From positions 240,704 through 304,703 of the forward strand of contig NZ_JACSET010000001.1 in NCBI RefSeq assembly GCF_014334325.1: a stretch of DNA of 64,000 nucleotides, given 5' to 3'. The position numbers and the translations under genes are program-made. Origin of the DNA: Treponema sp. Marseille-Q4130 (lineage in GTDB: Bacteria > Spirochaetota > Spirochaetia > Treponematales > Treponemataceae). Below are positions 1,460-41,650 of this stretch, piece by piece. The notes below the pieces were generated by a model, which saw only the letters and a program-made list of their open reading frames with translations, was not told the origin of the DNA and did not search any database. Every line of letters begins with the position of its first letter. Positions within the stretch are counted from its first letter, which is position 1.

Positions 1460-4400
1460 GTGAAAATTTCGTATAATGAATTTCATGTAAGTAAAAAAGT
1501 CAGAGACCTCTGCCGTTTCAACGAAACGCTGTTCGCTTCTTCCGGCAACGTAATTTTCTCCGACCTGTATCAAGTGCGCACCTTTGCCGAAAAACTGAAC
1601 GCCTACTTCGATAAACGAAACGAACACGAAAAGCGCGTGTCGGCAGGCGAACTCAACGCGATGGGTCTTATCGATGAAATCTTCCATTACGTGTGTATGC
1701 TGTATCGAAGAGATGCGGCAGGGGAGTCGTTCAGCGCCCTCCTTGCAAAACTCGATGACGAATTCGGAGTCGCACAGACGGACGCTCTCCTCTTGTCGTT
1801 TATCGCCGAGTTTCCGCCGGCGGCCGTTCGTAACGGTACGGTGAGCGCCGAAGAGTATCTTTCCGAGACCGCATTCGACGAAGGTGCGAATCGCGAGCGG
1901 ACAAATCGTGAACAGACGCTTGAAGAACTTATACTCCTGCACCTTGCAAACGAAAATCCCGCATTTAAAAAATTCGCGATTTTGTTTGACGATGCGAAAC
2001 TCGCTCAAAACCCGTTGTATGGGAAGTCATGGGAAAGTATAAAAACGCATTTCGCTCTGCTTCCGCCGTTCGGTCCCTTCGCTCACGACCTCATTTCCAT
2101 GCTGAAAGAACCCGTTGTCTACAGTCCCGAAAGCCTCAAAGGTCAGCTCGATTACATCCGCCTGCACTGGGGGACGATGCTCGGGGATATGATCAAGCGC
2201 CTGCTCGCCGGCATCGATACGATGCAGGAAGAAGAAAAAGCGGCGTGGCAGGGCGGGGGTGAGATCGAAGCGGTGCCGTACAGCTACGAAAATCTCACAA
2301 AAGAATACGAGCGTTTCAGCGCGGACAGCGCCTGGATGCCGCGCGTCGTGCTCATTGCAAAGATGGTGCTCGTGTGGCTCGATCAGCTTTCAAAAAAATA
2401 TTCCCGCGCGATTACCCGTCTCGACGAAATCCCCAACGAAGAGCTCGACACACTTCGGGACGAAGGCTTTACGGGGCTCTGGCTCATCGGCTTATGGGAG
2501 CGGAGTTATGCGAGTAAGCGCATCAAGCAGATCAACGGAAATGCGGATGCGGCAGCGAGCGCATACAGCCTCTATGATTATGAAATCGCGCACGATATCG
2601 GCGGCTGGGATGCGCTCATAAACCTGCGTACACGGCTATGGCAGCGCGGCATCCGTCTCGCATCCGACATGGTGCCGAATCACACGGGTATGGATTCGAA
2701 GTGGGTCGTCGAAAAACCCGACCTCTTCATTCAGCGAAGGGATTGCCCCTTTCCGCACTACACGTTCAACGGCGAAAATCTTTCGCGCGACGGGCGGGTC
2801 GGCATCTATCTCGAAGATCACTATTATACGAAAACGGACTGCGCCGTCATCTTTAAGCGAGTCGACAACTATACCGGAGATGTGCGCTATATCTACCACG
2901 GAAACGACGGCACGGGTCTTCCGTGGAACGATACGGCACAGATCGATTTTTTGAATCCTGTTGCGCGAGAAGAAGTGATGCAGGAGATCGTCAACGTCGC
3001 GAAAAATTTTCCGATCATCAGATTCGATGCGGCGATGGTGCTCGCAAAAAAACACATCAGACGGCTGTGGTACCCTGAGCCGGGGCACGGAGGGGACATC
3101 GCGACGCGGAGTGAAACTTCTCTTTCGACGGAAGAATTCAATCAGGCGATCCCGAACGAATTTTGGAGAGAAGTCGTCGACAGGATCGCAGCCGAAGTTC
3201 CCGACACGCTCTTGCTCGCCGAAGCATTTTGGATGATGGAAGGTTACTTCGTCCGTACGCTCGGTATGCACCGTGTCTACAACAGCGCGTTTATGAACAT
3301 GCTCAAAAAAGAGGAAAATCAAAAATACCGCGATACGATAAAGAATACGTTGCGTTTCGATCCGCAAGTGCTCAAACGCTTTGTAAACTTCGTCAACAAT
3401 CCCGACGAAGAAACCGCCGTCGCGCAGTTCGGTAAGGGCGACAAATACTTCGGCGTGTGTACGCTCATGGTTACGATGCCCGGTCTTCCGATGTTCGGAC
3501 ACGGCCAGATCGAAGGTTTCGAAGAAAAGTACGGCATGGAATATACGCGCGCATATCGGAATGAAGTTCCCGACGAAGGGTTCGTCGCGCGTCATCGTCG
3601 CGATATTTTCCCGCTTATGAAAAAGCGCCGCCTTTTTGCGGACGTCGAAAATTTTTTATTTTACGATCTGTGGAACGAAGGCAGCGTCGATGAAAACGTA
3701 TTCGCCTATTCGAACTGTGCGGACGGAGAATGTTCGATCGTCGTCTACAACAATACGTACGGGAGATCCGCAGGGTGGATCAAAGATTCCGTGCCCTATG
3801 CCGTTAAAACGGGAAGCGGCGAAAACGACAGACAGCTTGTAACGCGGACTATAGTCGATGGACTGCATCTCAGCGGCGAACGCGATACGTACTGTATTTT
3901 CTATGAACAGCGGTTGGGGCTCTATTATATACGCGAAAACGGCGATATTCGTGAAAACGGATTGTTTATTTCGCTGAACGGATTCGAATCGCAGGTCTAT
4001 ACGGGTATCCGTCAAGTTAAGGACACCGACACGCATAAATACCGCACTTTGTGTGAAGCACTCGCAGGTCGAGGCGCAGAAGATTTGGATACGCTTTGGG
4101 AAGAGATCGAATACTGGGAATTGTATATGCCACTCGAAGCCTTCGCGATTTTTTTGATTGCGAAAACGGAATCGCTGCTGTATTCTGCGGACAGGCCGTA
4201 CTTGGATAAAAAAGCACTTGCAGATAAAGTGCAGTCGCTCATGGATGAAGTCGAAGAAACTGCGCTTGCATTCTACGCCGTAGCACGACGGTTTGCCGAA
4301 GACGCGGGTTTTAAAGTCGCGCCGCCTGAAAAACAATTTCGACAATTTAATAAAATGTTTTCCGCCGTTGTGTCGTCCCTTACGGATGCCGCTCTTTGCG

Positions 4401-5395
4401 ACCTGCACTCAGACGATTATGAAAAATTATTAAAATCTAAATCAGGCGGAGATTTTATCGCATTTGCGGCATCTGTCGAAAAATCGATTCCGTTATTATT
4501 AATTTGTCTTGCATCGGTCGGAGAACTCGCCGCATGCGGATGCGCGAAAAGATTTAATTTCGCACGGAAATTTGCCGAACATATAAAACGAACGGGATGT
4601 GCGAACGCGCCCGATAGGCATCAGCTGATGCGTGTCTTTGCTCTTGCACCTCTTGCCGAAAAAACAGTATTATTAAATAATTTGAAGAAAGCAGCTTACG
4701 GGCTTGCAGCGCTTTTCGTGCAAAGCGAAGACGCGGCGCTGCTCTCGGGAAATAATTTCTTCAACGGCATACAGTGGTTTAACAAAGAGTTGTCGGACAG
4801 CAGCTTGATATACTTTACCGCTGCGGCAACATTGTATGCACCGGAAGGGAAGAAAGACTTTGTTCGTGCATTGTATTTTCTTCTCAATGATGCTAAAATA
4901 AACGCATCGTTTAAGAGCGAATTATTTATTAATCAATTCGCACCCGGAAAAGGTTCTAAAGCTTTACCTCCCGTCGGGAAGAGAGAAGCTTCAAAGATAA
5001 CAACCGCCGGAGTATCCGGCAAGAAGCACAAGGAGCTGACTATGGAGACAACCACAGCAAAAAAACCGGCTGAAAAAAAAGCAGCGGTAAAAAAGACCGT
5101 TGCTAAAAAAACGACGGCGAAAAAGCCGGCGGCGAAAACTGCAACAAAGAAGGCTGCAGTAAAAAAGGCCCCCGCAAAAAAATCGGCTGCGAGCAAAACC
5201 GTCGCAAAGAAAACAACGGTAAAGAAACCCGTTGCAAAGAAGACGGCAGCAAAAAAAACCGTCGCAAGCAAGACGACGGCGAAAAAAACGACCGCTAAAA
5301 AGACTGCCGTAAAAAAGACACCTGCAAAAAAAGCTCCGGCAAAGAAGACCGTTGCTAAAAAGACGACGGCAAAGAAAACCGCCGAAAAAAAATAA
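1460..5395 (+). CDS. GH13 alpha-amylase-family protein continuous with a histone-H1-like tail
   Basis: This open frame encodes 1311 residues and starts at GTG after GGAGATG. Residues ~1-280 are an uncharacterised helical region. A GH13 barrel follows: region I SDMVPNHTG, region II IIRFDAAM with the likely nucleophile D523, and region III LLAEAFW with the likely acid/base E588. Region IV is atypical (NFVNNPDEE instead of the usual NHD), so activity is plausible but not certain. The amylase-like part fills about 1180 residues. From residue 1195 the frame continues without a stop into a 117-residue Lys/Ala/Thr-rich tail. That tail has its own start signals (see 5042). No signal peptide is visible, so the protein is probably cytoplasmic and may act on storage glucans. 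Whether the long fusion protein is really made is unknown. Confidence 0.8.
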   Translation: MKISYNEFHVSKKVRDLCRFNETLFASSGNVIFSDLYQVRTFAEKLNAYFDKRNEHEKRVSAGELNAMGLIDEIFHYVCMLYRRDAAGESFSALLAKLDDEFGVAQTDALLLSFIAEFPPAAVRNGTVSAEEYLSETAFDEGANRERTNREQTLEELILLHLANENPAFKKFAILFDDAKLAQNPLYGKSWESIKTHFALLPPFGPFAHDLISMLKEPVVYSPESLKGQLDYIRLHWGTMLGDMIKRLLAGIDTMQEEEKAAWQGGGEIEAVPYSYENLTKEYERFSADSAWMPRVVLIAKMVLVWLDQLSKKYSRAITRLDEIPNEELDTLRDEGFTGLWLIGLWERSYASKRIKQINGNADAAASAYSLYDYEIAHDIGGWDALINLRTRLWQRGIRLASDMVPNHTGMDSKWVVEKPDLFIQRRDCPFPHYTFNGENLSRDGRVGIYLEDHYYTKTDCAVIFKRVDNYTGDVRYIYHGNDGTGLPWNDTAQIDFLNPVAREEVMQEIVNVAKNFPIIRFDAAMVLAKKHIRRLWYPEPGHGGDIATRSETSLSTEEFNQAIPNEFWREVVDRIAAEVPDTLLLAEAFWMMEGYFVRTLGMHRVYNSAFMNMLKKEENQKYRDTIKNTLRFDPQVLKRFVNFVNNPDEETAVAQFGKGDKYFGVCTLMVTMPGLPMFGHGQIEGFEEKYGMEYTRAYRNEVPDEGFVARHRRDIFPLMKKRRLFADVENFLFYDLWNEGSVDENVFAYSNCADGECSIVVYNNTYGRSAGWIKDSVPYAVKTGSGENDRQLVTRTIVDGLHLSGERDTYCIFYEQRLGLYYIRENGDIRENGLFISLNGFESQVYTGIRQVKDTDTHKYRTLCEALAGRGAEDLDTLWEEIEYWELYMPLEAFAIFLIAKTESLLYSADRPYLDKKALADKVQSLMDEVEETALAFYAVARRFAEDAGFKVAPPEKQFRQFNKMFSAVVSSLTDAALCDLHSDDYEKLLKSKSGGDFIAFAASVEKSIPLLLICLASVGELAACGCAKRFNFARKFAEHIKRTGCANAPDRHQLMRVFALAPLAEKTVLLNNLKKAAYGLAALFVQSEDAALLSGNNFFNGIQWFNKELSDSSLIYFTAAATLYAPEGKKDFVRALYFLLNDAKINASFKSELFINQFAPGKGSKALPPVGKREASKITTAGVSGKKHKELTMETTTAKKPAEKKAAVKKTVAKKTTAKKPAAKTATKKAAVKKAPAKKSAASKTVAKKTTVKKPVAKKTAAKKTVASKTTAKKTTAKKTAVKKTPAKKAPAKKTVAKKTTAKKTAEKK
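4871..4899 (+). promoter_or_regulatory. Putative promoter inside the amylase gene, upstream of the H1-like part
   Basis: TTGTAT (4871-4876), a 17-base spacer and TAAAAT (4894-4899) match a sigma-70-type promoter. A 7-bp inverted repeat (4917-4923 with 4935-4941) follows. The internal ATG at 5042 is about 135 bases downstream. Confidence 0.45.
5042..5395 (+). CDS. Histone-H1-like Lys/Ala/Thr-rich protein from an internal start
   Basis: An AGGAG (5031-5035) stands 6 bases before an in-frame ATG. The predicted 117-residue product begins METTTAKKPAEKK and consists almost entirely of degenerate KKTxAKK/AKKPA units, like the C-terminal domain of histone H1 and bacterial H1-like proteins. Such proteins bind DNA without sequence specificity. 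It shares its frame with the preceding GH13 gene and no stop separates them. It could therefore be made alone from the internal start, as a tail on the amylase, or both. A promoter-like sequence inside the upstream gene and a terminator just after the stop favour separate expression. Confidence 0.65.
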   Translation: METTTAKKPAEKKAAVKKTVAKKTTAKKPAAKTATKKAAVKKAPAKKSAASKTVAKKTTVKKPVAKKTAAKKTVASKTTAKKTTAKKTAVKKTPAKKAPAKKTVAKKTTAKKTAEKK

Positions 5396-5462: not shown

Positions 5463-5796
5463 TTTCCCCTATCGTAAAAAATGCGGTTTCGCTTTCCCAA
5501 TCGAAGACGGTGTTTTCGCGTGCGCTTTCGAGGAGACGCACGATTTTTTCGAACTCTTTCGATGAAAGCGCATCTGCGATCCGTGCGCCGTATGCGGACG
5601 ATTTCGCATCGAACCACTTTGCAAGTTCTTCTTCCGTGATCCGCCGTTTTTCGACAAAGCGGCGCGATAAGCTTCTTACAATAAAGCCTTTGTTTTCGAA
5701 TGTGCGGACGACGGACGATGCATCCCAGTTGAAAAGAGGGTTTTCCGTATCGCCGAAAAATTCGTCTTCCGCCGCTTTCATTTTTGCAAGCGTGTC
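5463..5796 (-). pseudogene. Duplicated 3' fragment of rarA, fused to helicase remnants
   Basis: These 334 bases match 11880-12213, the 3' end of the intact rarA gene, without indels at a constant offset of 6417; about nine in ten bases look identical by eye. Read on the minus strand, it carries the last ~110 codons of RarA, starting at about [13 protein letters not shown] and ending in its own stop. Upstream on the same strand it abuts pieces of a UvrD/PcrA-type helicase, not the rest of rarA. The junction lies at about 5796. It is a recombination scar with no start signals of its own. Confidence 0.85.
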
Positions 5797-5811: not shown

Positions 5812-6201
5812 CAGGCGGGATCGGCAGCATGATGAGATCGTCGAAGTCGACCGCGTTGTACAGCTTCAATCCCCGCTCGTACGATTCGTAGAGCGCGCGG
5901 TACATATCGTTTATCTCTCCCAATTTTTGATGTCTAAAAAGAGGTTCGCGATTTTGTAAACGGCGAGCACGTCGGACGTAAACTGCAGTTCGCGCGCGGC
6001 TTTATTCGGAAAAGTCAGTGCAAGGATCACGCTTTGAGGGATGCCCTTGTCGAGGATGTGCGCGATGCGGTACGTGATGACGCGCGTTTTGCGGCTTCCT
6101 GCTCCGGCGATGATCAAAATCGGTCCGTCGATTGTCATGACGGCTCGCAGCTGTTCGGGGTTGAGTTCCGTTTCCAATGCATGTATGTCGAGTTCGGACA
6201 T
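5812..6201 (-). pseudogene. Broken N-terminal part of a UvrD/PcrA-type DNA helicase
   Basis: On the minus strand the frame from ATG 6201 reads MSELDIHALETELNPEQL and continues into a helicase motif I. The P-loop is AGAGSRKTR, where the family has GAGSGKT, so an essential glycine is changed to arginine. The frame stops at 5911-5913. In another frame the homology continues with a segment ending NAVDFDDLI, a family landmark that normally lies further along. The gene therefore has a frameshift, a large internal deletion and a mutated ATP site. It then runs into the rarA fragment. It is almost certainly non-functional. Confidence 0.85.
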
Positions 6202-6290
6202 GGCGCACAATGTAGTACTCGGAACGCTTTTTGTGCAAGCGCACACGGGGTGAAAATGAAAAATATACAATATATCTCCATTTTCCGGAT

Positions 6291-6308
6291 AATGTAAACG
6301 TTTATCAT
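6291..6308. promoter_or_regulatory. Upstream LacI-type operator
   Basis: The palindromic core TAAACGTTTA (6295-6304) with the flank ATG...TCAT is the same sequence as at 6441-6458. A central CG is typical of LacI/GalR-family operators. The two cores are 149 bases apart centre to centre, which would allow DNA looping. Confidence 0.7.
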
Positions 6309-6402
6309 TTACTTTTTCGGAACTAAGGCGTGTTACTATGTATTATATTGATAATATTTGATATTTAGTGATAAAATTTTTTTATAATTTTATTTTTTTT
6401 TC

Positions 6403-6430
6403 TTGACAGCGCTATATTATGTGGTATACT
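6403..6430 (+). promoter_or_regulatory. Promoter of the aroA-like/TRAP operon
   Basis: TTGACA (6403-6408), a 16-base spacer and TATACT (6425-6430). Transcription should start near 6437, immediately before the downstream operator. Confidence 0.75.
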
Positions 6431-6440
6431 TGTTGATAAA

Positions 6441-6458
6441 GTGTAAACGTTTATCATT
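6441..6458. promoter_or_regulatory. Proximal LacI-type operator
   Basis: The core TAAACGTTTA (6444-6453) lies just after the predicted transcription start and before the ribosome site (GGAGG near 6465). A bound repressor here would block the operon. The likely ligand-responsive regulator is the LacI-family protein encoded at the far end of the operon. Confidence 0.75.
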
Positions 6459-6478
6459 TTTGTCGGAGGCATACTGTT

Positions 6479-7765
6479 ATGGAATATGTTGTCAAACCTT
6501 CCGTTTTGTCGGGGCGGAGTGCAATTCCGGGAAATAAATCCGGTACGGCGCGCGGAATTGTTTTCGGCTCTCTGGCAAGCGGCAGAAGTATTTTATACAA
6601 TCCTTTAAATAATTTGGACAGTTATTCGATCGTATATATGATGCGTGCGCTCGGAGCTGAAATCGATACGTCCGATAATGCAAAATGGATTATCGACGGC
6701 GTGGACGGAAAACCGAAACAACCGGCATGCGTGCTCGACGCGCAAAATTCCGGAACGGGATTTTATTTTGCGTTGGCCGTAGCGAGTCTTATCGACGGAT
6801 ACAGCGTTCTTACCGGCGACTATCAAATTTGCTACAGACCTGCACAGCCGATGATCGATGCGATCAATTCGATGGGCGGTACCGCTTTTTCGACGCGCGA
6901 TTCCGGTACGGCGCCGATTGTTGTGCGGGGACCTATCAAAGGCGGAGAATTTTCAATGCCGGGTGTCAACTCGCAATGGATGACACCCTTTTTATGCGCG
7001 TGCGCTTTGACGGAAAAAGGCGCGCTGATTCATGAAACAAATCTATTGGAGCATCCCTATGTCGATATGACAATCGGTATGCTGCGAATTGCCGGTGTTA
7101 CCGTTGAAAATCGCAATTACGATGAATTCTACGTACCGGGAAACCAAAAGTTTCATGCGTTTGAATATACGTTGCCGGGAGATTGGGGTTCTGCCGGTTA
7201 TCCGCTGGTTGCGACCGCGATTTCGCCGGGTTCAAAAGTACAATTTACGGGTCTCGATATCAATGATTTTGCGGGAGAGACCGCATATGTACAAATTTTA
7301 AAAGATATGGGTGCTCGTGTCGAAGTTATCGATGAAGGCAGAGGTGGTGTCATCGTTGAGGGATGTGCCGATTTGCAGGGTATAGAAATAGATTGCTCCG
7401 GTACTCCCGATGCGGTTCCTGCGCTTGCCGTACTCGGAACACAGGCTTCGGGAAAAACGGTGCTGAGGAATATCGGTGCCTGCCGTTTAAAAGAAACCGA
7501 TAGGGCGAAATCGATAAAAGAAGAATTAACAAAAATGGGCGCACGGCTTGAAGAAACGGAGGATACGCTGACCGTTTATCGTTCCCGGCTGCACGGTACG
7601 CATATCAGCGGGCATAATGATCATCGCATCGTCATGGCGATGAGTGTCGCCGGTCTTGCTGCAGAAGGAGAAACTGTCATCGATACTGCCGAGTGTTCTG
7701 CTGTATCCTTTCCGAATTTTTTTGAAGTGATGACTTCGATACGGGCTGATATAGTACGCAGGTGA
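6479..7765 (+). CDS. Divergent EPSP synthase (AroA-family) paralogue
   Basis: This 428-residue protein has the enolpyruvyl-transferase fold. By eye against E. coli AroA, many ligand residues remain: K20-S21-x3-R25 in the N-terminal PGNKSGTAR, the YRP arginine, SQ in VNSQW, the Asp in TPDAVPALA, KETDR, and NDHR. Two are lost. The NAGTxxR motif reads NSGTGFY, so its arginine is replaced by tyrosine, and the C-terminal catalytic lysine position reads Val (SAVSFPNFF). These changes suggest a different substrate or reaction, not shikimate-pathway duty. The gene leads an operon with a TAXI-TRAP transporter under a LacI-type operator, which points to metabolism of an imported carboxylate. Start ATG follows GGAGG. 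Confidence 0.8.
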   Translation: MEYVVKPSVLSGRSAIPGNKSGTARGIVFGSLASGRSILYNPLNNLDSYSIVYMMRALGAEIDTSDNAKWIIDGVDGKPKQPACVLDAQNSGTGFYFALAVASLIDGYSVLTGDYQICYRPAQPMIDAINSMGGTAFSTRDSGTAPIVVRGPIKGGEFSMPGVNSQWMTPFLCACALTEKGALIHETNLLEHPYVDMTIGMLRIAGVTVENRNYDEFYVPGNQKFHAFEYTLPGDWGSAGYPLVATAISPGSKVQFTGLDINDFAGETAYVQILKDMGARVEVIDEGRGGVIVEGCADLQGIEIDCSGTPDAVPALAVLGTQASGKTVLRNIGACRLKETDRAKSIKEELTKMGARLEETEDTLTVYRSRLHGTHISGHNDHRIVMAMSVAGLAAEGETVIDTAECSAVSFPNFFEVMTSIRADIVRR

Positions 7766-7811
7766 TTTTGAATACTTGATGTTTTCTGCAAAATTTTTTA
7801 TAGGAGGTTAT

Positions 7812-8801
7812 ATGAAAAAATTATTAAGTGCGTTGTTGATTTGCAGCGCAGCGATGACGGGTGTTTTTGCCGACGGTCAGTCTAAAGTGAAGAGAATCTC
7901 CATCGGCACTGCAGGAACTGCGGGATCCTTGTATCCTATGGGAGTCGCAATGGCCGCGACGATTACCAAACACGTTCCCGGTATTGCATGTACGGGTGAG
8001 GCGACTGCCGCATCCGTAGAGAATATCAGAAATTTGACTTCCGGAAAGCTTGCGATGGGGATATCGCAAAGCGAAATAGCGTATTTGGCATATAACGGAC
8101 TCGGGGATTTTTCAAAGAGAAAAGCCGGTGATCTCCGTGCTATGTTCAGTACCATCTACAGTTATGTTCAGATTTTTACAAAGGACGGCAGTCCGATACA
8201 TAAGGTCCAAGATTTAAAAGGCAAATCCGTCGGTGTCGGTGCGGCAGGTTCCGGAGGAGAGATGGCATCGCGCATGATTCTGGATTATTATAAAATCACT
8301 TACAAAGATATCAAACCTCAGTTTATTCCCGAATCGGAAGCCGTGTCCGCTTTGAAAGACGGTAAAATCGACGCATTTATCTGTACGCATCCGCTGAAAT
8401 CCGCCGCTTTGACGGATCTGACAACATCGACAAAGGTGAAAATGATTTCGATAGATGATGCCGATTTTTATAAACATTTTCCGTTTTGGACACGCTATAC
8501 GATTCCGGCGGGAACATACGAAAATGTATCATATCCGGTCGTTGTCCCGATAAGCCGCGTCAATATGCTGACTTCGACGAAAAGCACTTTGACGGAAGAC
8601 GATGTATATGCCATTACAAAAGCCGTTTGGGAAAATCGTGACGAGTGGAGCGGTGCAACGAACTCCGTAAAAAAGCAAGTCGTGTGGGATACGGTGATAA
8701 ACGAAATTTCCGTTCCGCTGCACGCCGGTGCGGTAAAATATTTTCGAGAAAAAGGCTTAACGATTCCCGCTTCTTTACTGCCGCCTGAAGCGCAACGGTA
8801 A
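7812..8801 (+). CDS. TAXI-family TRAP transporter solute-binding protein
   Basis: The product is 329 residues from an ATG preceded by AGGAGG. A signal peptide (MKKLLSALLICSAAMTGVFA) is followed by ISIGTAGTAGSLYPMGVAMA, the opening typical of TAXI receptors, and later by GKSVGVGAAGSGGEMASRMI. TAXI proteins capture small acids in the periplasm and pass them to a fused TRAP permease, which is the next gene. The gene lies 46 bases after the aroA-like gene and shares its promoter. The ligand cannot be read from the sequence. Confidence 0.9.
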   Translation: MKKLLSALLICSAAMTGVFADGQSKVKRISIGTAGTAGSLYPMGVAMAATITKHVPGIACTGEATAASVENIRNLTSGKLAMGISQSEIAYLAYNGLGDFSKRKAGDLRAMFSTIYSYVQIFTKDGSPIHKVQDLKGKSVGVGAAGSGGEMASRMILDYYKITYKDIKPQFIPESEAVSALKDGKIDAFICTHPLKSAALTDLTTSTKVKMISIDDADFYKHFPFWTRYTIPAGTYENVSYPVVVPISRVNMLTSTKSTLTEDDVYAITKAVWENRDEWSGATNSVKKQVVWDTVINEISVPLHAGAVKYFREKGLTIPASLLPPEAQR

Positions 8802-8861
8802 ACTTGCAGCGCTATCGTACGGTTTGCCGAGTTTTCTTGCAAAAGCAATGGGGCACTGAAT

Positions 8862-10751
8862 ATGGAAAAAAATAAACAAAAGAACGATATCGTTTTTGCG
8901 ACTATCTTGATACTTTCGATTTTTATTTGTGCTTTTCATATATTCATTACATTGACGGTGAGTGTCAGCGTAATGCAACAGCGAGTTGTGCATGTATTTA
9001 CATTGATGCTTTTGTGGTATGTCTATCGTCTTAAAGAAAATCCGGCAATCGATTTGAGACGAATACTTTTTGCCGTTGCAGCGGTCGTTATATGTACGGG
9101 CGGTATTTATTATGTACTGCAGTGCCGTACGGATGCGCTTATGGAAAAAGGAATTTTCGGCATCACTTTCAGCGATATCGTTTTCGGTGTACTGTTGATG
9201 TTGTTCGTTTTGGAAATCGCCCGAGAAACGATAGGGATCGCGTTGCCTATTATAGCCGCCGTGTTTTTGCTTTATGCCTTTAGCGGTCCCTATCTTCCCA
9301 ATATTATAGCGCATAGAGGATACGATATACCGTACATTATAAACTATGTGTGCTGGACGAATGAAGGAATCTTCGGAACGCCTGTGGGAGCTGCCGCTTC
9401 GTTTGTCGTTTTATATATCATCTTCGGTGAACTGCTCGATCAGTTCGGTTCGGGTAAATTCTTTATCGATATATCGTATGCGTTGACGGGGCGGATGCGG
9501 GGCGGGCCTGCCGAAGCATCTGTTTTGTCCAGTGCATTGATGGGATCCATCAACGGCAGTGCAGTCGCCAATGTGGTTACGACGGGGACGTTTACGATTC
9601 CGCTCATGAAAAAAGTCGGGTATCGTAAAGAATATGCCGGCGCCGTGGAAGCAGTTGCATCTACCGGCGGGCAGATTTTACCGCCGGTTATGGGCGCAGC
9701 CGCTTTTGTTATGGCGGATATGACCGGGATTGCGTATTCAACGATTGTCATTTCCGCGCTGATTCCCGGTTTGCTGTATTATATCAGTCTCGGTATAGCC
9801 GTTTATCTTGAAGCGGGGAGAATGGGGATCAAAGCGGAAAGCGACGTACGGTTCCGTACGGTAGGAGCTATATTAAAAGAGGGCTGGTATCATATCGTTC
9901 CTCTGGCAGTTTTATTAATTTGCTTGTTGGTATGTAAGTTTTCCGCAAATTACAGCGCAATCTTTGCGATTCTTTCCGTGTCGATTATCGGAATTATAAA
10001 AAGCGTGATTTTCGAACATACGTTTCCTCTTGAACAATTTAAAAATATGTGTATCCGTGCCGCGCGTTCGAGTGTTGCCGTGTCTGCCGCGTGTGCTTGT
10101 GCCGGTATCGTTATCGGCATTGTGAGTATGACGGGACTCGGCGTACGTTTTGCGCAGATAGTGCTCGATGTTTCTCACGGACATCTTTTTCTTATGCTGC
10201 TTATGACTATGGTCGCATGCATCGTTCTCGGAATGGGATTGCCGTCGACGGCCGCATACGTCATCGCGGCAACAGTTGCTTCTCCGGCATTGATTCAAGC
10301 GGGCGTATCCGCCATTGCGGCAAATCTATTTGTTTTTTATTTTGCGATTATTTCGTTTATCACACCTCCCGTTGCGATAGCGGCATATGCCGCTTCGGGA
10401 ATCGCCGAATCCGATGCGATAAAGACTGGATTTCAAGCATTTTTGCTCGGCCTCGCGGGGTTTATCATTCCGTTTATACTGATCTATCATCCGGGTATTT
10501 TGATACTCGGTACATCGGTTCTCCCGACGATTCGAGCTGTTGTCATCGCGTTTTGTGCCGTATGTATGACGGCAGTATGTATTGAAGGTTGGCTGGGAAC
10601 GCCCGTATCCGCCGCATACCGCGTATTCTGTTTTATTGCGGCCGTCTTATTATTGATACCGACTGCCGGTACGATGGCGATCGGGCTTCTTTTATGTACT
10701 GTATTAATAATTTTTTCTTTTGTTAAAAAGAAACGGAATCGCGCGCAGTAA
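8862..10751 (+). CDS. TRAP transporter permease, fused 4TM/12TM type
   Basis: This 629-residue, very hydrophobic protein combines a short DctQ-like N-terminal membrane region (~residues 1-150) with a large DctM-like domain. Typical DctM stretches include EASVLSSALMGSINGSAVANV near residue 220, the GQILPPVMGAAAF loop, and a second half with GLPSTAAYVIAA. Fused permeases of this kind pair with TAXI receptors, as here. It uses an ion gradient, not ATP, for high-affinity uptake. The ribosome site is weak. It is the last gene of the LacI-controlled operon and is followed by the convergent regulator gene 35 bases on. Confidence 0.92.
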   Translation: MEKNKQKNDIVFATILILSIFICAFHIFITLTVSVSVMQQRVVHVFTLMLLWYVYRLKENPAIDLRRILFAVAAVVICTGGIYYVLQCRTDALMEKGIFGITFSDIVFGVLLMLFVLEIARETIGIALPIIAAVFLLYAFSGPYLPNIIAHRGYDIPYIINYVCWTNEGIFGTPVGAAASFVVLYIIFGELLDQFGSGKFFIDISYALTGRMRGGPAEASVLSSALMGSINGSAVANVVTTGTFTIPLMKKVGYRKEYAGAVEAVASTGGQILPPVMGAAAFVMADMTGIAYSTIVISALIPGLLYYISLGIAVYLEAGRMGIKAESDVRFRTVGAILKEGWYHIVPLAVLLICLLVCKFSANYSAIFAILSVSIIGIIKSVIFEHTFPLEQFKNMCIRAARSSVAVSAACACAGIVIGIVSMTGLGVRFAQIVLDVSHGHLFLMLLMTMVACIVLGMGLPSTAAYVIAATVASPALIQAGVSAIAANLFVFYFAIISFITPPVAIAAYAASGIAESDAIKTGFQAFLLGLAGFIIPFILIYHPGILILGTSVLPTIRAVVIAFCAVCMTAVCIEGWLGTPVSAAYRVFCFIAAVLLLIPTAGTMAIGLLLCTVLIIFSFVKKKRNRAQ

Positions 10752-10786
10752 AATAATTGTTCAGTTCGGAAAACAAGCGATATAGG

Positions 10787-11857
10787 TTACTTGTTTTTCA
10801 AAACGGTCGTTGTTTTATCCGGTACGAGCGTTACATCGAGTGCGATATCGTGTACCGATTTATTATCTATGACGTTCTTTAATGCTTTTACGGATTCTTC
10901 TCCCATTTTTTTTAATTGCAGTTCTACTTTTGAAAAATGCGAAGCGCCGTTGCGACCCTTTGCATCGAATATGACGATCGATATGTCATTAGGAATATTC
11001 AAGCCTTGCGATCGTAACTGCTCGGTACATCCCGTTGCGATAATCGGATCCATGAGGATAATACCGGTACACGATCCCATCTGTCCGAGAATGGCGGTAG
11101 CGGCATCTTTTCCGTTTTCGGCGGAATAAGTCGATATGATTATTAAATTCGGATTGACTTCGATATTCGATTCGGAGAGCGCTTTGATATATCCTCTGAG
11201 TCTGTCGCACGAAGAAAAGGTGCTGCTGTACGGATCGTTGAGAAATTGCAGAAGTTCGGTTCCCGTTTCGCACGGCGGATTCCAAAAACTTGCAACGAAT
11301 GCGATATGCTTTCTCCCCATTTGAAGCAAAAAGCGTGTTGCGAGGTAGCCGCCTTTTTCTCCGTTGTGATATACATGAGGTATGTTTGGGAACAGATTTC
11401 GTCTGGCAGCGATAACGAGCGGGAGATTCCGAAAGCTCTCGATACTCGGTATGTTTTTTGCTCTGGCTACGGGGATGTAAATCAATCCGTCGAGAATGGA
11501 GTGCGAAAACTGCTCGATAATTTCATTTTCTTCTTTTTCCGAACCTTGACAAGATGCGCACAAAACGGCCAGACCGTTTCGGCTTGCTTCTTCCATGATC
11601 CCTTCGGCAACGGCTGAAAAAAAATAATGCGTCAGCTTCGGTAAAATCAATCCGATTATCCCGGTCCGCTGCCCTTTCATAAAGCGCGCGGCGATATTCG
11701 GTTTATAGTTTGTTTTTTCAAGAACCGCCCGTATTTTCTCTTCGTTCGATTTCCGTATCGATTGTCCGTTGAAATAGCGAGAAAGCGTTGCAATGGAAAT
11801 TCCGGAAAGGGCTGCGATGTCTTTTATTGAATACTCTTTTATCTGTTTCCGCGTCAT
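10787..11857 (-). CDS. LacI-family transcriptional regulator
   Basis: This 356-residue protein has an N-terminal helix-turn-helix (IKDIAALSGISIATLSRYFNG, residues ~10-30), a hinge-like segment and a periplasmic-binding-protein-like sensor domain. Its start codon overlaps the rarA stop as ATGA (11854-11857), so it is probably translated from the rarA mRNA. It converges on the aroA-like/TRAP operon, whose promoter carries two copies of a LacI-type palindrome. It is therefore the likely specific repressor of that operon, with the imported compound or a product as inducer. Direct binding is inferred. Confidence 0.9.
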   Translation of the reverse strand: MTRKQIKEYSIKDIAALSGISIATLSRYFNGQSIRKSNEEKIRAVLEKTNYKPNIAARFMKGQRTGIIGLILPKLTHYFFSAVAEGIMEEASRNGLAVLCASCQGSEKEENEIIEQFSHSILDGLIYIPVARAKNIPSIESFRNLPLVIAARRNLFPNIPHVYHNGEKGGYLATRFLLQMGRKHIAFVASFWNPPCETGTELLQFLNDPYSSTFSSCDRLRGYIKALSESNIEVNPNLIIISTYSAENGKDAATAILGQMGSCTGIILMDPIIATGCTEQLRSQGLNIPNDISIVIFDAKGRNGASHFSKVELQLKKMGEESVKALKNVIDNKSVHDIALDVTLVPDKTTTVLKNK

Positions 11858-14337
11858 TCTTGTATTTTCCGTTCTTTATTTTCCTCTATCGTAAAAAATG
11901 TGGTTTCGCTTTCCCAATCGAAAACGGTATTTTCTCGCGCACTTTCGAGGAGGCGCACGATTTTTTCAAGCTCTTTCGATGAAAGCGCATCTGCGATCCG
12001 TGCACCGTATGCGGACGATTTCGCATCGAACCACTTTGCAAGCTCAGCTTCCGTGATCCGCCGTTTTTCGACGAAGCGGCGCGATAAGCTTCGTACGGTA
12101 AAGCCTTCGTTTTCGAATGTGCGGACGACGGACGACGCATCCCAGTTGAAAAGCGGGTTTTCCGTATCGCCGAAAAATTCGTCTTCCGCCGCTTTCATTT
12201 TTGCAAGCGTGTCTTCGTATGCGCCGAGCGTTGCGGGCGTGAGTATCTGCGTTTCGACGATGCGGCTCAGGTATTGTGCGCTTTTGGGAATGCGCTGCGC
12301 GATGACGGCGAGCCATCCTTCGGCGAAAACCACATCACCCGACTGTTCGCTTTCGGAGGTAGGGGAGGGCGCTTCTTTTTTTAGTCCCGTGTGCGAAAGA
12401 GAAGCGGCTAGGGATTCGATCGATGCGGGTGAGGTAAAAGGATTTCGGAAAAAGAGGCGGTCGAATTCGGCGCCCCGATATGCGAACTGCAAGACGATAT
12501 CGGAAAAGATTTCGCTTGTAATGCCTTCTCCGCCCGCTCCTTCGGGAAGTACTTGCAGGACGGGTTTATCCAAATCGCCGAGCGTCCTTCCGTACTGTTC
12601 AAGGATTTCTTTTCCTTTTTCGGTACGGCACAGCCCGCACGTCATCCCTTCGGGCGTTTTCCGCGCGACGTCCCACAACAAAAGACCGTCGTCCGCGTTC
12701 CACACGAGCGAGCGGTGATGGCGGAGAAGGCCTGCAAGTTCGGTCATCGTATCGCGCACGGCGAGAAGCACTTCCGCACGGTTCGAGTCGAGACGCGCCC
12801 TCCACGATTTATCGGCTCTGTCGAGCGCCGTCTCTTTTGCCGCGTCTGCGGGGCTGAAGGTGAGGTGTTCGCCTTTTTTATTATTAATAAAATGTACTGA
12901 GTCGAGCTTCGTGCCGGCTGCCGTTTTATACTGCGTACTTTCGCCGCCGCCGGCCGAGGGTGCTTCCCGTTCGAGAAGTGAAGCGATTTGAATTTCGCGC
13001 CTTGAAAGCACGTCGCCTCGTATCGTTTTTTCGTAGCCCTGCGTACCCGGCGTATAAAAAACGCGGCCGACGAGAGCGTCGGGTAAATACTGTTGTGCGA
13101 CCCAGTGATCGCGGTATGCGTGCGGGTAGAGGTAGCCTTCTCCGTGACCGAAACCTTCGGCATCGCGGTTTCCGTCGCGCAAGTGATTGGGCACTTCCGC
13201 GTCTTCTTTTTCCACCGATGCAAGCGCATCAAAAAACGCCATACTGCTGTTCGATTTCGGCGCGGTCGAAAGATAGAGCGCCGCGTGTGCGAGAAAGTAG
13301 CGCCCCTCGGGCATGCCGACCCGGTCGAATGCGTCGGCACAGCTTGCGACGATGCTCACTGCGTTCGGATCTGCAAGTCCCGTGTCTTCGCATGCCGATA
13401 TGAGCATCCTCCGGAAGATAAACGAAGCGTCTTCTCCGGCGGCGACCATGCGCGCGAGCCAATACATTGCGGCATCTGGATCGCGCCCCCTCAGGCTTTT
13501 AATAAACGCGCTGATGATATCGTAGTGATAATCGCCGTCGCGGTCGTAGAGTACGACTTTTTTTTGAATCGATTCTTCGGCGGCTTCGCGGCTTATGTAG
13601 ATCGTCGAACCCCACGCAGGAACGGGAGGCGAGGCTGCGGCATCCCATTTTTCTGGTGTCGTTTCTACTGCGAGTTCGAGCGCGTTCAGCAAACTGCGCG
13701 CGTCTCCGTTCGCCGTTTCGATCAAGTGTTCGAGTGCGCCTTTTTCGAATTCGACTTTCCAATGACCGTAGCCGCGCTCTTTGTCGCCGAGCGCCTGTTC
13801 TGCCGCTTTTCGCAAATCGCCGTTTGTCAGCGGTTTCAGTTGAAACACGCGGCTCCTGCTCACGAGCGCTTTATTGACTTCGAAAAACGGATTTTCGGTC
13901 GTCGCTCCGATTAAAATGATCGTACCGTTTTCGACCCACGGCAGAAGGGCGTCCTGCTGCGCTTTGTTCCAGCGGTGCACTTCGTCGACGAATAAAATCG
14001 TGCGGCGGCTGTAAAGACTGTAAAAGTCTTCGGCCTGTTTGATCGCCGTTCTGATGTCGGCGACTCCCGTGAGTACGGCATTCAGCGTGATAAAATTACT
14101 TTTCGTATGATTTGCGATGACGCGGGCGAGCGTCGTTTTTCCGCTTCCCGGCGGTCCGTAAAAGATAACCGACGAAAGCTGATCGGCTGCGATCGCGCGC
14201 CTCAAAAGCCTGCCCTTGCCGACGATGTGATCCTGCCCGATGTATTCGTCGAGCGTTCGCGGTCTCATCCGTGCGGCCAGCGGTTCGCGGAGCGCGTGTG
14301 CGTTTTTAAAAAGATCGGCATCGTTCGAGTGGGGCAT
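11854..14337 (-). CDS. rarA: RarA/MgsA-type AAA+ ATPase with long C-terminal extension
   Basis: The product is 827 residues from ATG 14337. Residues ~25-430 are a RarA/WHIP-family clamp-loader-like ATPase: [18 protein letters not shown], Walker [10 protein letters not shown] at 61-69, Walker [10 protein letters not shown], and the sensor [11 protein letters not shown]. RarA acts at stalled replication forks. The usual protein is about 430-450 residues; the extra ~390 residues are of unknown fold and include a Cys-containing [10 protein letters not shown] segment. The 3' end exists as a second partial copy at 5463-5796. A TATACT 6 bases before the start suggests a leaderless mRNA. An upstream in-frame ATG at 14361 is less likely. 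Confidence 0.85.
11880..12213. repeat. Parent copy of a 334-bp direct repeat
   Basis: The 3' end of rarA is repeated at 5463-5796 in the same orientation without indels. The copies flank the whole aroA-like/TRAP/lacI locus, so recombination between them could delete about 6.4 kb. Confidence 0.85.
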
Positions 14338-14343
14338 GATATC

Positions 14344-14372
14344 AGTATACATCAGTACCACACGTTTGACTA
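14344..14372 (-). promoter_or_regulatory. Promoter of rarA-lacI
   Basis: On the minus strand TATACT (14349-14344) has a weak TAGTCA 17 bases upstream (14372-14367). The expected start of transcription falls at or next to the ATG at 14337. Confidence 0.5.
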
Positions 14373-34747: not shown

Positions 34748-36031
34748 ATGCACGAATACATAATCGACGGCGGATATCCGATTCGGGGAAGCATCACCGC
34801 AGGCGGCAATAAAAACGCGGCGCTCCCGTGCATTGCGGCGGCTTTGCTCACGGAAGAAAGCGTTACGCTGCACAATATTCCGGACATAGAAGACACGCGT
34901 GTTATGCTCGACATTGCCCGATCCTTCGGTGCCGACGTCGAGTGCGTAAAAAATCACAGCTGGAAAATCACCGCCAATCGATTTGCAAACACGATGATCC
35001 CTCCGGAGCTTTCAAAAAAGATACGCGCATCGATTTTATTTGCAGGTCCCCTCCTCGCTCGAACGGGAAGAGCTGAAATGCTGCCGCCGGGCGGAGACGT
35101 TATCGGCAGGAGAAGGCTCGACACGCACTTTCTCGCGCTCACCGAACTCGGCGCACGCGTAGACATAAACGGTAAATTCGTGTTTTATGCGGACGCGCTC
35201 AAAGGCGCCGATATCTTTCTCGACGAAATGTCGGTAACCGCGACGGAAAACGCCGTCATGGCGGCAGTGCTTGCAAAAGGCGAAACGATCATTTCAAATG
35301 CGGCGAGCGAACCCCACATACAGACCTTGTGCGCCATGCTCGTGAGTATGGGCGCAAAAATCAGCGGCATCGGAAGCAATATTTTACGCATCGAAGGAGT
35401 CGAGTCCCTGCACGGCTGCGAATGTACGATAGGCCCGGACTACATGGAAATCGGTTCGTTTATCGGACTTGCAGCGGCCACCCGCGGTTCGCTCACGATC
35501 GAAGGCGTCAATCCTCAGGATATGCGGCCGCTCAGGCTCGGTTTCAGCAAACTCGGCATCGCATGGAATATCGACGGCACGACGCTCACCGTTCCCGAAC
35601 GGCAGGAACTCAAAGTAAACGGCGATATCGGAAACTCGACGCCGAAAATCGACGACGCTCCGTGGCCGGGTTTTCCGCCCGATTTGACGAGCATTATGAC
35701 GGTCGTCGCAACGCAAGTCGAAGGCACGGTGCTCATCTTCGAAAAGATGTTCGAATCGCGCATGTTTTTCGTCGACAAACTGATAAACATGGGTGCCTGC
35801 ATCACGCTCTGCGATCCGCACCGCGCCGTCGTGTCGGGCCCGCGCATCCTCCACGGCGACCACCTCGTCTCTCCCGACGTGCGAGCCGGCATGGCAATGG
35901 TGATCGCGGCGATGACGGCACACGGGCAAAGCAGAATTTCAAACGTGTACCAGATCGAACGCGGCTACGAACACTTGGTCGAACGGCTTCAGTCGGTCGG
36001 AGCGCACATCACGACGGTCGACGTCGAGTAA
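34748..36031 (+). CDS. murA: UDP-N-acetylglucosamine 1-carboxyvinyltransferase, Asp-type active site
   Basis: The 427-residue enzyme transfers enolpyruvate to UDP-GlcNAc, the first committed step of peptidoglycan synthesis. GGNKNAA with K22 and LLARTGRAEMLPPGGDVIGR mark the fold. In the catalytic loop the residue that is Cys in E. coli MurA (GGCxIG) is Asp117 here. This change is known to make MurA insensitive to fosfomycin. The start follows GGGAGG. A separate AroA-family enolpyruvyl transferase lies at 6479. Confidence 0.95.
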   Translation: MHEYIIDGGYPIRGSITAGGNKNAALPCIAAALLTEESVTLHNIPDIEDTRVMLDIARSFGADVECVKNHSWKITANRFANTMIPPELSKKIRASILFAGPLLARTGRAEMLPPGGDVIGRRRLDTHFLALTELGARVDINGKFVFYADALKGADIFLDEMSVTATENAVMAAVLAKGETIISNAASEPHIQTLCAMLVSMGAKISGIGSNILRIEGVESLHGCECTIGPDYMEIGSFIGLAAATRGSLTIEGVNPQDMRPLRLGFSKLGIAWNIDGTTLTVPERQELKVNGDIGNSTPKIDDAPWPGFPPDLTSIMTVVATQVEGTVLIFEKMFESRMFFVDKLINMGACITLCDPHRAVVSGPRILHGDHLVSPDVRAGMAMVIAAMTAHGQSRISNVYQIERGYEHLVERLQSVGAHITTVDVE

Positions 36032-40132: not shown

Positions 40133-41650
40133 CTAACAAAGCCTCTCGCAGTCGGCACCGTAATCGATTCCCGTAAAAATTTTAAACTGCTTGTAGCCCT
40201 GATACTTGAGCATTTCCGCGCCGTTACAGGTTTTGCAGCCCGCTTCCGAAGCGCGTGCCATGATCGGTGTGACGGCGGGCACGTACACCAAATCGAATAC
40301 CGTTTCCGTTCCGTTGAATTGATAAAAATACAGTGGGTCGCCGTCTTTCGACGCTTGCCCGTTCGAGTTCATACCCTTCGACGTCGTCTGAACGATGATG
40401 TCTGCGTACTTTTCGATTTTTTTCGCAGCTTCCGGTCCGAGCGGCGCATAGTCGAAGCCGTACCGTTCGGCAAGCGCTTTCGCATGAGAAAGCGTTCTGT
40501 TGAAGACACACGCTTTTGCGCCGAGGGATTTTACGACGTACGCGACGGCTTTTGCAGCTCCTCCCGCACCGATGATCGCAACACGGCGGCGGCGAAGTTT
40601 TTTTACGCCGAGAAAACGCAAAAGCGCCGTTTGAAATCCGTACGCGTCGGTATTGCAGCCCGCCCACCCCTCGTCGGTGTGTACGACGGTATTGCACGCA
40701 CCGATCGCCTGCGCTTCCGAATCGAGCTTTATCAATTCGGGGATCACGGCTTCTTTATGCGGAACGGTTACCGCAAGCCCCCGCACGCCCAAGTATGCCG
40801 CACAGTCGAGCACATCGGAAACGGACGGCGAGCGCAGCGGCAAAAGGAGGGCATCGATATTATTGATTTTATATCCTTCGTTGTGAAGCGCGGGACTCGA
40901 TGTTTTTGCAAGCGGCCAGCCGGTCACCGCATAGAGCGTTGTTCGATCGCTTAAAGAGCGGAAACGGTATACGTCGTTCAACGATACAGGATCGATATGT
41001 CCGATGCCGGAAATATTGTTTTCCGTTTCTTCGGGCGACACGTAGGTAAGGTACGAATGAAGTTTATATGCCAAAATACGCGAAACCTGTCCGAGCGGGC
41101 CCATCGCGCACAGTATGTGCTCGTAATCGGTCATCGACTCCGCTTCGCGGAACATATCGGAAACGTCGGCAAGCGTTTTCGGCATAAAGGCGATCTTCGG
41201 AATTTCATAGCCGGTCGTGCGCATCGCTTCGCATTTCGCTTTGAGATTTTTTATCGGCTTTTCCATGTCGTGGCAGCTTCTGATGATGCGGACGCCGAAA
41301 GCGAGTGAGGCATCTTGCAGACTCGGCACTCGGAAGTCCTCTTCAAAATCGACGTACGCGAAATTCTTTTGCGGGTTTTGGTCGGCAAACGCGAGGGCGC
41401 GTCCGAAAAGCATCGTACGCGACATTTCATTGCTCGTAAATCTTCCGCCGTCGGCCGTACGGCGGATCGTCAATATGCACGGTACGTTGACCATCGCCGG
41501 AAAGCGGCGCACCGAAAGCTGTTCGTCGGGAGCAAGGAAATCGACGCGGAGTTCTGCGACGTCGATATAGCGGTTATACTTCCGCACGAGAGCCGCGTTC
41601 TCTTCGAGCGTCGAAGCGGTGAGCGTCAAACAGACAAGCGGTTGACTCAT
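40133..41650 (-). CDS. aroDE: Fused 3-dehydroquinate dehydratase / shikimate dehydrogenase
   Basis: The 505-residue bifunctional enzyme covers steps 3 and 4 of the shikimate pathway. The N-terminal half is a type I dehydratase: ELRVDFLAPDE, IIRSCHDMEKP with the catalytic His, and KIAFMPKTLADV. The C-terminal half is AroE: AVTGWPLAKTSSPALHN, VTVPHKEAVI with the catalytic Lys, GACNTVVHTD, GCNTDAYGF, and the NADP-binding GAGGAAKAVAY with FNRT. The fusion is known in plants, chlamydiae and some spirochaetes. Start has GAGGAT upstream. Its aroA partner is not in this window. Confidence 0.95.
   Translation of the reverse strand: MSQPLVCLTLTASTLEENAALVRKYNRYIDVAELRVDFLAPDEQLSVRRFPAMVNVPCILTIRRTADGGRFTSNEMSRTMLFGRALAFADQNPQKNFAYVDFEEDFRVPSLQDASLAFGVRIIRSCHDMEKPIKNLKAKCEAMRTTGYEIPKIAFMPKTLADVSDMFREAESMTDYEHILCAMGPLGQVSRILAYKLHSYLTYVSPEETENNISGIGHIDPVSLNDVYRFRSLSDRTTLYAVTGWPLAKTSSPALHNEGYKINNIDALLLPLRSPSVSDVLDCAAYLGVRGLAVTVPHKEAVIPELIKLDSEAQAIGACNTVVHTDEGWAGCNTDAYGFQTALLRFLGVKKLRRRRVAIIGAGGAAKAVAYVVKSLGAKACVFNRTLSHAKALAERYGFDYAPLGPEAAKKIEKYADIIVQTTSKGMNSNGQASKDGDPLYFYQFNGTETVFDLVYVPAVTPIMARASEAGCKTCNGAEMLKYQGYKQFKIFTGIDYGADCERLC

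Follow-up and report, generated by a model that had tools for sequence, protein, structure and literature searches.

The enolpyruvyl transferase family is described, in the excerpted text of PMC11588093, as two enzymes, 5-enolpyruvylshikimate-3-phosphate synthase (EPSPS, AroA) and MurA. The protein considered here is a family member encoded at 6479–7765 (forward strand, 428 residues) of a 64,000-nucleotide stretch of the Treponema sp. Marseille-Q4130 genome, which we call the window and to which coordinates refer throughout; other genome contigs are labelled C, genomes G and loci L. Proteins at least 50% identical to it are termed EPSPS-A. A few antibiotic-pathway relatives also belong to the family. 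EPSPS-A resembles classical EPSP synthase (TIGR01356, PF00275), the target of glyphosate, in its fold, in a score past the family cut-off and in its catalytic columns. It differs in clade-specific residues beside the loops for shikimate-3-phosphate (S3P), in its linkage to importer genes and in its occurrence in draft genomes without detected chorismate synthase. With the Treponema-type AroA of the window genome (L002, 36% identity) it shares Tyr, Val and Glu at the columns of Escherichia coli R100, K411 and S197, but L002 belongs to a separate clade and has no importer of the tested families nearby (L105). MurA is of the same superfamily, and some MurA proteins also have Asn before the catalytic-loop Lys, whereas the other MurA columns differ. 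A MurA identity was rejected because EPSPS-A scores 67.4 bits with the MurA model TIGR01072, far under the cut-off of 392.7.

The importers at EPSPS-A loci have their closest described parallel in phthalate uptake. Section 2.5 of PMC13040137, as excerpted, lists TTT, ABC and TAXI-TRAP systems for phthalate, plus MFS, and the first three types match those at EPSPS-A loci. The o-phthalate cluster of Pseudomonas PTH10 holds a putative TAXI-TRAP pair, according to an excerpt of PMC6362003. Phthalate loci differ in carrying ring-degrading enzymes and not an EPSPS relative. The MqnA step of the futalosine menaquinone pathway yields 3-[(1-carboxyvinyl)oxy]benzoate, in which a ring acid bears an enolpyruvyl ether (PMC8042841, in excerpt). 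There it arises from chorismate by dehydration, unlike the transfer proposed below. The full-text literature searched, whose reach leaves most subscription journals outside, contained no account of a TRAP importer paired with a relative of EPSPS.

In the window, the EPSPS-A gene is followed in the same direction by genes for a TAXI-family solute-binding protein (7776–8801, forward) and a fused TRAP transporter permease of 629 residues (8862–10751, forward). A LacI-family regulator of 356 residues is encoded convergently to them (10787–11857, reverse). The TAXI coordinates assume a TTG start; the ATG at 7812 within the frame, which precedes a stretch resembling a signal peptide by eye, is the likelier one. 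Both importer proteins exceed the cut-offs of their family models, with 264.9 bits for TIGR02122 (cut-off 84.35) and 609.8 bits for TIGR02123 (cut-off 320.65). A preliminary description of this locus had reported an AroA paralogue with a TAXI-TRAP importer and a LacI gene, and the genes at 6479–11857 are as it claimed. Its operon stands for EPSPS-A, TAXI and TRAP, in that order, while the LacI gene lies outside. We propose, with a probability of about one half, that these genes form a regulated module for taking up an acid, probably a cyclic one, and that the enzyme joins the enolpyruvyl group of phosphoenolpyruvate (PEP) to this acid in a reaction that is no part of the chorismate pathway.

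The pairing with an importer recurs well beyond the window, in further anaerobes, as the gene-neighbourhood search suggested in the preliminary description brought out. Among 34 EPSPS-A loci, one per genome, an importer adjoins the gene in 32, and these importers come from three unrelated families: TAXI-TRAP in 22 loci (L163 being counted from its TAXI part alone, where the contig ends), NMT1/SsuA-type ABC in seven and TTT in three. The identical queries, at a laxer E-value, found importers of these families in 0 of 21 other AroA loci, which extended up to about 7–8 kb on each side and were in some cases cut by contig ends. A LacI gene lies near EPSPS-A in 14 of the 34 loci and an IclR gene in nine. 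In 12 of the 16 spirochaete loci, EPSPS-A, TAXI and TRAP are co-directional and accompanied by a LacI gene. TAXI, TRAP and LacI run divergently from EPSPS-A in L162 and L164, a LysR-like gene (by eye) takes the place of LacI in L165, and L163 is cut by the contig end. The LacI gene, convergent in the window, is divergent and upstream of EPSPS-A in L035–L044 and L161. Three spirochaetes (G135, G094 and G121) have a LysE-type gene behind EPSPS-A as well. Seven queries for each of chorismate synthase and shikimate kinase, at an E-value of 1e-4, found no homologue in the 34 neighbourhoods. No ring-degrading enzyme was seen recurring by eye or in a clustering of 22 loci, no search by family having been made.

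The region 5' of the window gene is consistent with regulation by LacI. The palindrome TGTAAACGTTTATCA occurs there in two exact copies, to which no strand is assigned: a distal one at 6293–6307, 149 bp upstream of the proximal one at 6442–6456. The latter lies just 3' of the −10 box of a sigma-70-like promoter, TTGACA-16-TATACT (6403–6430, forward), recognised by consensus match only (11 of 12 positions). A similar site stands 33–37 bp before the EPSPS-A start in L036, L037, L038, L040, L041, L042, L043 and L044, and between EPSPS-A and TAXI in L162, which makes nine of the 15 other spirochaete loci. None was found in L035, L039, L161, L163, L164 or L165, L035 having a near variant. Beyond the spirochaete EPSPS-A loci, such a site appeared only in L166 and L208 among the 38 loci scanned. 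With three mismatches allowed, the window contains three matches against 2.0 expected by chance, which is no excess; the weight of the operator rests on its position and conservation. With a LacI-family gene and a conserved palindrome at the promoter, the locus is, by prediction, a LacI-controlled operon.

The distribution of EPSPS-A relative to the chorismate pathway may also point away from a housekeeping role in several genomes. Eighteen EPSPS-A genomes (G000 and G059–G075) were scanned with PF00275. Another AroA is encoded in 11 of them and none was found in G065, G068, G069, G070, G072, G073 and G075. Chorismate synthase (aroC, PF01264) was not found in G060, G068, G069, G070, G072, G073 or G075. 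The order of G073, whose 17 genomes include records labelled Syntrophaceae, gives the clearest pattern. Seven of its genomes have EPSPS-A and six another AroA; G086 alone has both, and five have neither. Chorismate synthase is present in exactly the six with another AroA, which also give shikimate kinase matches of 104–160 bits, and in 0 of the 6 genomes with EPSPS-A only (G069, G070, G073, G075, G084 and G088, all drafts). Prephenate dehydratase (PDT) and the chorismate-binding enzyme PF00425 were likewise not found in any of the six, and no full-length shikimate kinase was found in them, G069 having no PF01202 match at all. In the spirochaete G068, LacI, TAXI and TRAP genes stand beside EPSPS-A, and searches for aroB, aroC, PDT, PF00425 and shikimate kinase found none. 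Retention of EPSPS-A in drafts without a detected chorismate pathway fits action on an imported compound. The aroB gene (PF01761) was set aside as of little use as a pathway marker, since G071, G077 and G078 match chorismate synthase but not PF01761. Across this order, the lack of a detectable chorismate synthase is unexpectedly common, extending to 11 of the 17 draft genomes. The five genomes with neither AroA type are also without a chorismate synthase match, and G091 among them has PDT and PF00425.

The enzyme itself is of the EPSPS type. It scores 359.8 bits with the NCBIfam AroA model TIGR01356 (cut-off 287.25), for which the other AroA copy of the window genome, on C12, scores 334.1. An AlphaFold2 model from a 20-row alignment has a pLDDT of 93.9 and is nearest to S3P-bound EPSP synthases (TM-scores 0.92–0.94 for the top ten). 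Its 50 best matches in the Protein Data Bank are EPSPS entries or domains, bar two chains named designed hydrolase.

The catalytic columns, whose residue roles we take to be those of E. coli EPSPS, agree with this picture, and the earlier claim that most AroA ligand residues are kept holds throughout the clade. The equivalents of K22, S23, R27, D49, N94, G96, T97, R124, S170, Q171, Y200, D242, D313, K340, E341, R344, D384, H385 and R386 are E. coli-like in 33 of 33 rows, and that of R338 in 32. The N336 column is Ala in 31 of the 33. The window protein does have the Tyr at the R100 column and the Val at the K411 column that had been singled out before. They are not special to it: Tyr is found at R100 in 10 and Val at K411 in all of the 14 rows of a Treponema-type group (11 Treponema-type and three from Clostridia), and other spirochaete AroA rows have them in 8 of 11 and 11 of 11. 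The two residues were therefore rejected as marks of lost EPSPS function. What does set the clade apart from other AroA rows is a group of ten alignment columns, four of which (A24, G94, N164 and W167 in window numbering) flank motifs that bind S3P or PEP. Judged from the alignment, the chemistry of EPSPS-A looks intact, and its acceptor side may be changed.

In the mechanism that we propose, LacI, or IclR in other genomes, would repress the promoter 5' of EPSPS-A. When the ligand of the regulator is present, the cell would make the enzyme along with an importer, whose cargo would be a small organic acid, probably with a ring. EPSPS-A would then move the enolpyruvyl group of PEP onto a hydroxyl of the imported acid, or of a derivative of it, apart from chorismate synthesis; the chemistry would be that of ordinary EPSP synthase and the acceptor site an altered one. 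In the Syntrophaceae-containing order, a chorismate mutase encoded just behind EPSPS-A may take over the product. The preliminary description had already raised an imported cyclic acid as a possible substrate, and this idea gains support from the importer pairing and from the drafts without a detected pathway. EPSPS-A probably acts on something taken up by the cell. Three points are our inference: the acceptor is the compound that the importer brings in, or derives from it; this compound has a ring; and the reaction runs toward transfer. If the proposal is right, the importer-coupled AroA-like clade is a further kind of enolpyruvyl transferase with a new metabolite to discover, the neighbouring binding protein, whether TAXI, TctC or NMT1-type, should have the substrate or its precursor as ligand, and an 'aroA' annotation is no sure sign that an anaerobe makes aromatic amino acids.

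Several observations weigh against this proposal. Sequence, predicted fold and family model all classify EPSPS-A as an EPSP synthase. The S197 column is Glu in all 33 EPSPS-A rows and likewise in all 25 Treponema-type and other spirochaete AroA rows, and the K411 column, Val or Ile in the clade, is Val in the same 25 rows, so neither is a mark of new function. Chorismate synthase is present in 11 of the 18 EPSPS-A genomes scanned, as a fragment at a contig end in G071. G065 has aroC and aroB and no other AroA was found in it; EPSPS-A may therefore be the EPSPS there. G072, without aroC, aroB and PF00425 matches, has shikimate kinase and a gene for chorismate mutase-prephenate dehydratase (CM-PDT). 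Five of the EPSPS-A-only drafts have PF01202 matches of 21–25 bits, formally past the low cut-off of 22.1; they span 23–25 of 159 positions, corresponding to the P-loop, and we read them as other P-loop proteins. The loci of G073 and G523 have no adjacent importer. Finally, the genomes without a detected pathway are drafts with no stated completeness, so that its absence is likely, short of proof.

The main rival, possible though doubtful, is that the module salvages shikimate. Imported shikimate, or quinate or dehydroshikimate, would be converted to S3P by the housekeeping shikimate kinase, and EPSPS-A would be an inducible EPSP synthase feeding the cell's own chorismate synthase. The AroA score, the intact chemistry columns and the EPSPS fold are as expected from salvage, the window genome has shikimate kinase, aroC and aroB, and aroC is present in nine of the 11 spirochaete carriers scanned, the window genome counted. 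In addition, LacI genes related to that of the window adjoin AroA-type genes in Clostridia, two of them beside chorismate synthase. Against salvage stand the seven genomes, six of one order and G068, that keep EPSPS-A where neither chorismate synthase nor full-length shikimate kinase was found; an importer lies beside EPSPS-A in five of those six and in G068. The lack of homologues of these two enzymes in the 34 EPSPS-A neighbourhoods and the presence of another AroA in 11 of the 18 carriers argue in the same direction.

A different concern is that the shikimate pathway only seems to be missing, and that EPSPS-A is an EPSP synthase linked to transporters by chance and by transfer. We regard this as improbable. 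The genomes in question are drafts, and where the order of G073 has aro genes, most of them are close to one another (G086:C292, G080:C12, G083:C126), so that one missing contig loses most of them; G065 probably has the reverse gap, and PDT and PF00425 occur in G091, where no AroA or aroC was found. Against such an artefact, the set is missing in six of six EPSPS-A-only genomes, MurA is present in each of the four that were scanned for it, order-mates with another AroA carry the full set, and three unrelated importer families would each need a chance attachment. The EPSPS reaction is reversible. Outside cells, enolpyruvyl ethers are rare and break down readily. A catabolic reverse reaction, in which an imported enolpyruvyl ether (chorismate or a relative) would be stripped with phosphate to PEP and a ring alcohol, and the mutase of the Syntrophaceae-containing order would use the same import, is the least probable of the rivals: regulator, importer and enzyme are arranged like a catabolic locus and a mutase without chorismate synthase is sensible if chorismate comes from outside, but the scarcity and instability of the ethers count against it, as does the lack of any recurring ring-degrading enzyme among those seen by eye or by clustering of 22 loci, with no search by family.

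The mutase gene allows the proposed transfer onto an imported acid to be extended in this order. It lies directly behind EPSPS-A in six of its seven loci (G069, G070, G075, G084, G086 and G088; not G073), and thus in five of the six EPSPS-A-only genomes. Three of the mutase proteins were scanned and match PF01817 at E-values of 1e-21 to 1e-23, and the other three align to one of them at 52–82%; one scores 75.8 bits with NCBIfam TIGR01807 (cut-off 69.55). DUF362 and ABC genes are further members of all six clusters; a B12 radical-SAM protein is encoded in five of them and a U32-family protein in four (G069, G070, G075 and G084). The U32 proteins TrhP and RlhA require prephenate, as stated in an excerpt of PMC6599085, and this need prompts the conjecture that the U32 protein is the user of the product. 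One U32 protein of the cluster was put to an NCBIfam search and matched no model. A two-enzyme route independent of shikimate would start from an imported ring acid and the enolpyruvyl group of PEP; rearrangement of the resulting ether by the mutase would then give a prephenate-like product with no need for shikimate kinase or chorismate synthase. We consider this route unlikely, if worth stating. In such a route the product could serve the U32-family protein, known RNA hydroxylases of that family being prephenate-dependent. An alternative end point would be an enolpyruvyl-benzoate of the futalosine type.

As for the acid, importer-family parallels and IclR matches offer hints only that it has a ring. 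NCBIfam scans covered seven of the nine IclR neighbours, all but L205 and L207. Six match the PcaR/PcaU/PobR model best, all under its cut-off, and L050 matches KdgR best. A TAXI protein of known structure is described, in the excerpt of PMC5812351, with binding of glutamate and glutamine, which are non-cyclic ligands. Reading the ligand from the nearest solved binding protein was abandoned, as the TAXI, TctC and NMT1 matches fix none.

EPSPS-A forms a single lineage. A contig scan with the window protein turned up 22 relatives, of which 17 are EPSPS-A and five (L052–L056, 25–39% identity) were left out. The class of G063 (393 genomes) gave 13 matches at an E-value of 1e-100, of which 11 are EPSPS-A and L159 and L160 (42%) were left out, and the phylum of G071 (395 genomes) gave 16, with identities of 51–61% throughout. 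In an IQ-TREE phylogeny of 75 rows, all 33 from EPSPS-A fall into a single clade with support of 100/99. The tree and the residue counts cover 33 of the 34 loci, the G075 gene being split across two contigs and omitted. The sister of the clade is L159, a 42%-identical spirochaete protein on a long branch (98/90), followed by other spirochaete AroA proteins; L159, read in L166, adjoins TTT genes and a LacI gene. The window copy falls among spirochaete copies that are 69–75% identical to it. Among 35 genomes of the same genus searched at 1e-10, none has more than one match, 34 having one and one having none. Together with the grouping, these single matches suggest that the window copy was probably gained by transfer. 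A plasmid collection contained no match to EPSPS-A at 1e-60.

The window genome (G000, 2.79 Mb, 99.76% complete) has three PF00275 genes: EPSPS-A, MurA (34748–36031, forward) and an AroA at C12:180788–182119. The preliminary description had allowed that EPSPS-A would be the ordinary EPSP synthase if the genome lacked a second aroA-family gene; the C12 copy is such a gene. The ordinary pathway is represented by aroDE (dehydroquinate dehydratase/shikimate dehydrogenase; 40133–41650, reverse), aroC on C2, aroB on C16, PDT on C13 and a shikimate kinase 28 kb from AroA on C12, so that the pathway is present with its own AroA. The distance of EPSPS-A from aroDE had been taken as informative. The position of aroDE is right, but the aro genes of this genome are scattered, so absence of clustering says little, and we discarded it as evidence on EPSPS-A. 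PF00425, covering anthranilate/PABA synthase, has no match in the window genome despite the presence of aroB, aroC and PDT.

Some further loci showed features of their own. The AroA-type genes L052, L053, L054 and L249, from Clostridia and one Sphaerochaeta genome (G063), adjoin a LacI gene, and these LacI proteins are related to those of EPSPS-A loci (237–258 bits, versus 89 and 127 for two unlinked LacI). The L052 gene is also near genes for MmgE/PrpD and an M20 peptidase, plus Opp/Dpp-like ABC genes (by eye). Genes resembling indolepyruvate oxidoreductase subunits lie several kb from EPSPS-A at L162:671–4152 and L146:17102–19507, and the L162 region also has an AMP-binding, PaaK-like gene; Pfam backing applies only to the scanned L162 pair.

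The window module itself lies between the two arms of a direct repeat that consists of 300 bp of the rarA 3' end. One arm (11880–12179, reverse) lies within the long rarA reading frame and the other, a duplicate 93% identical to it, at 5463–5762 (reverse); it looks as if a donor segment had integrated at the end of rarA. No integrase was recognised among the open reading frames listed for the window between the arms. The ATG of the LacI gene overlaps the rarA stop codon. The RarA/MgsA protein (11854–14361, reverse) has 835 residues, the last ~385 of them without a Pfam match. A reading frame of 119 codons at 5911–6270 (reverse), located after the rarA duplicate and before the operators, encodes a truncated N-terminus of a UvrD helicase, likely a remnant. 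Upstream of the module, a large reading frame at 1460–5395 (forward), amylase-like by eye, ends in a long Lys/Ala-rich C-terminal tail, which is encoded by a 15-bp repeat at about 5046–5390 and resembles a histone-H1-like tail.

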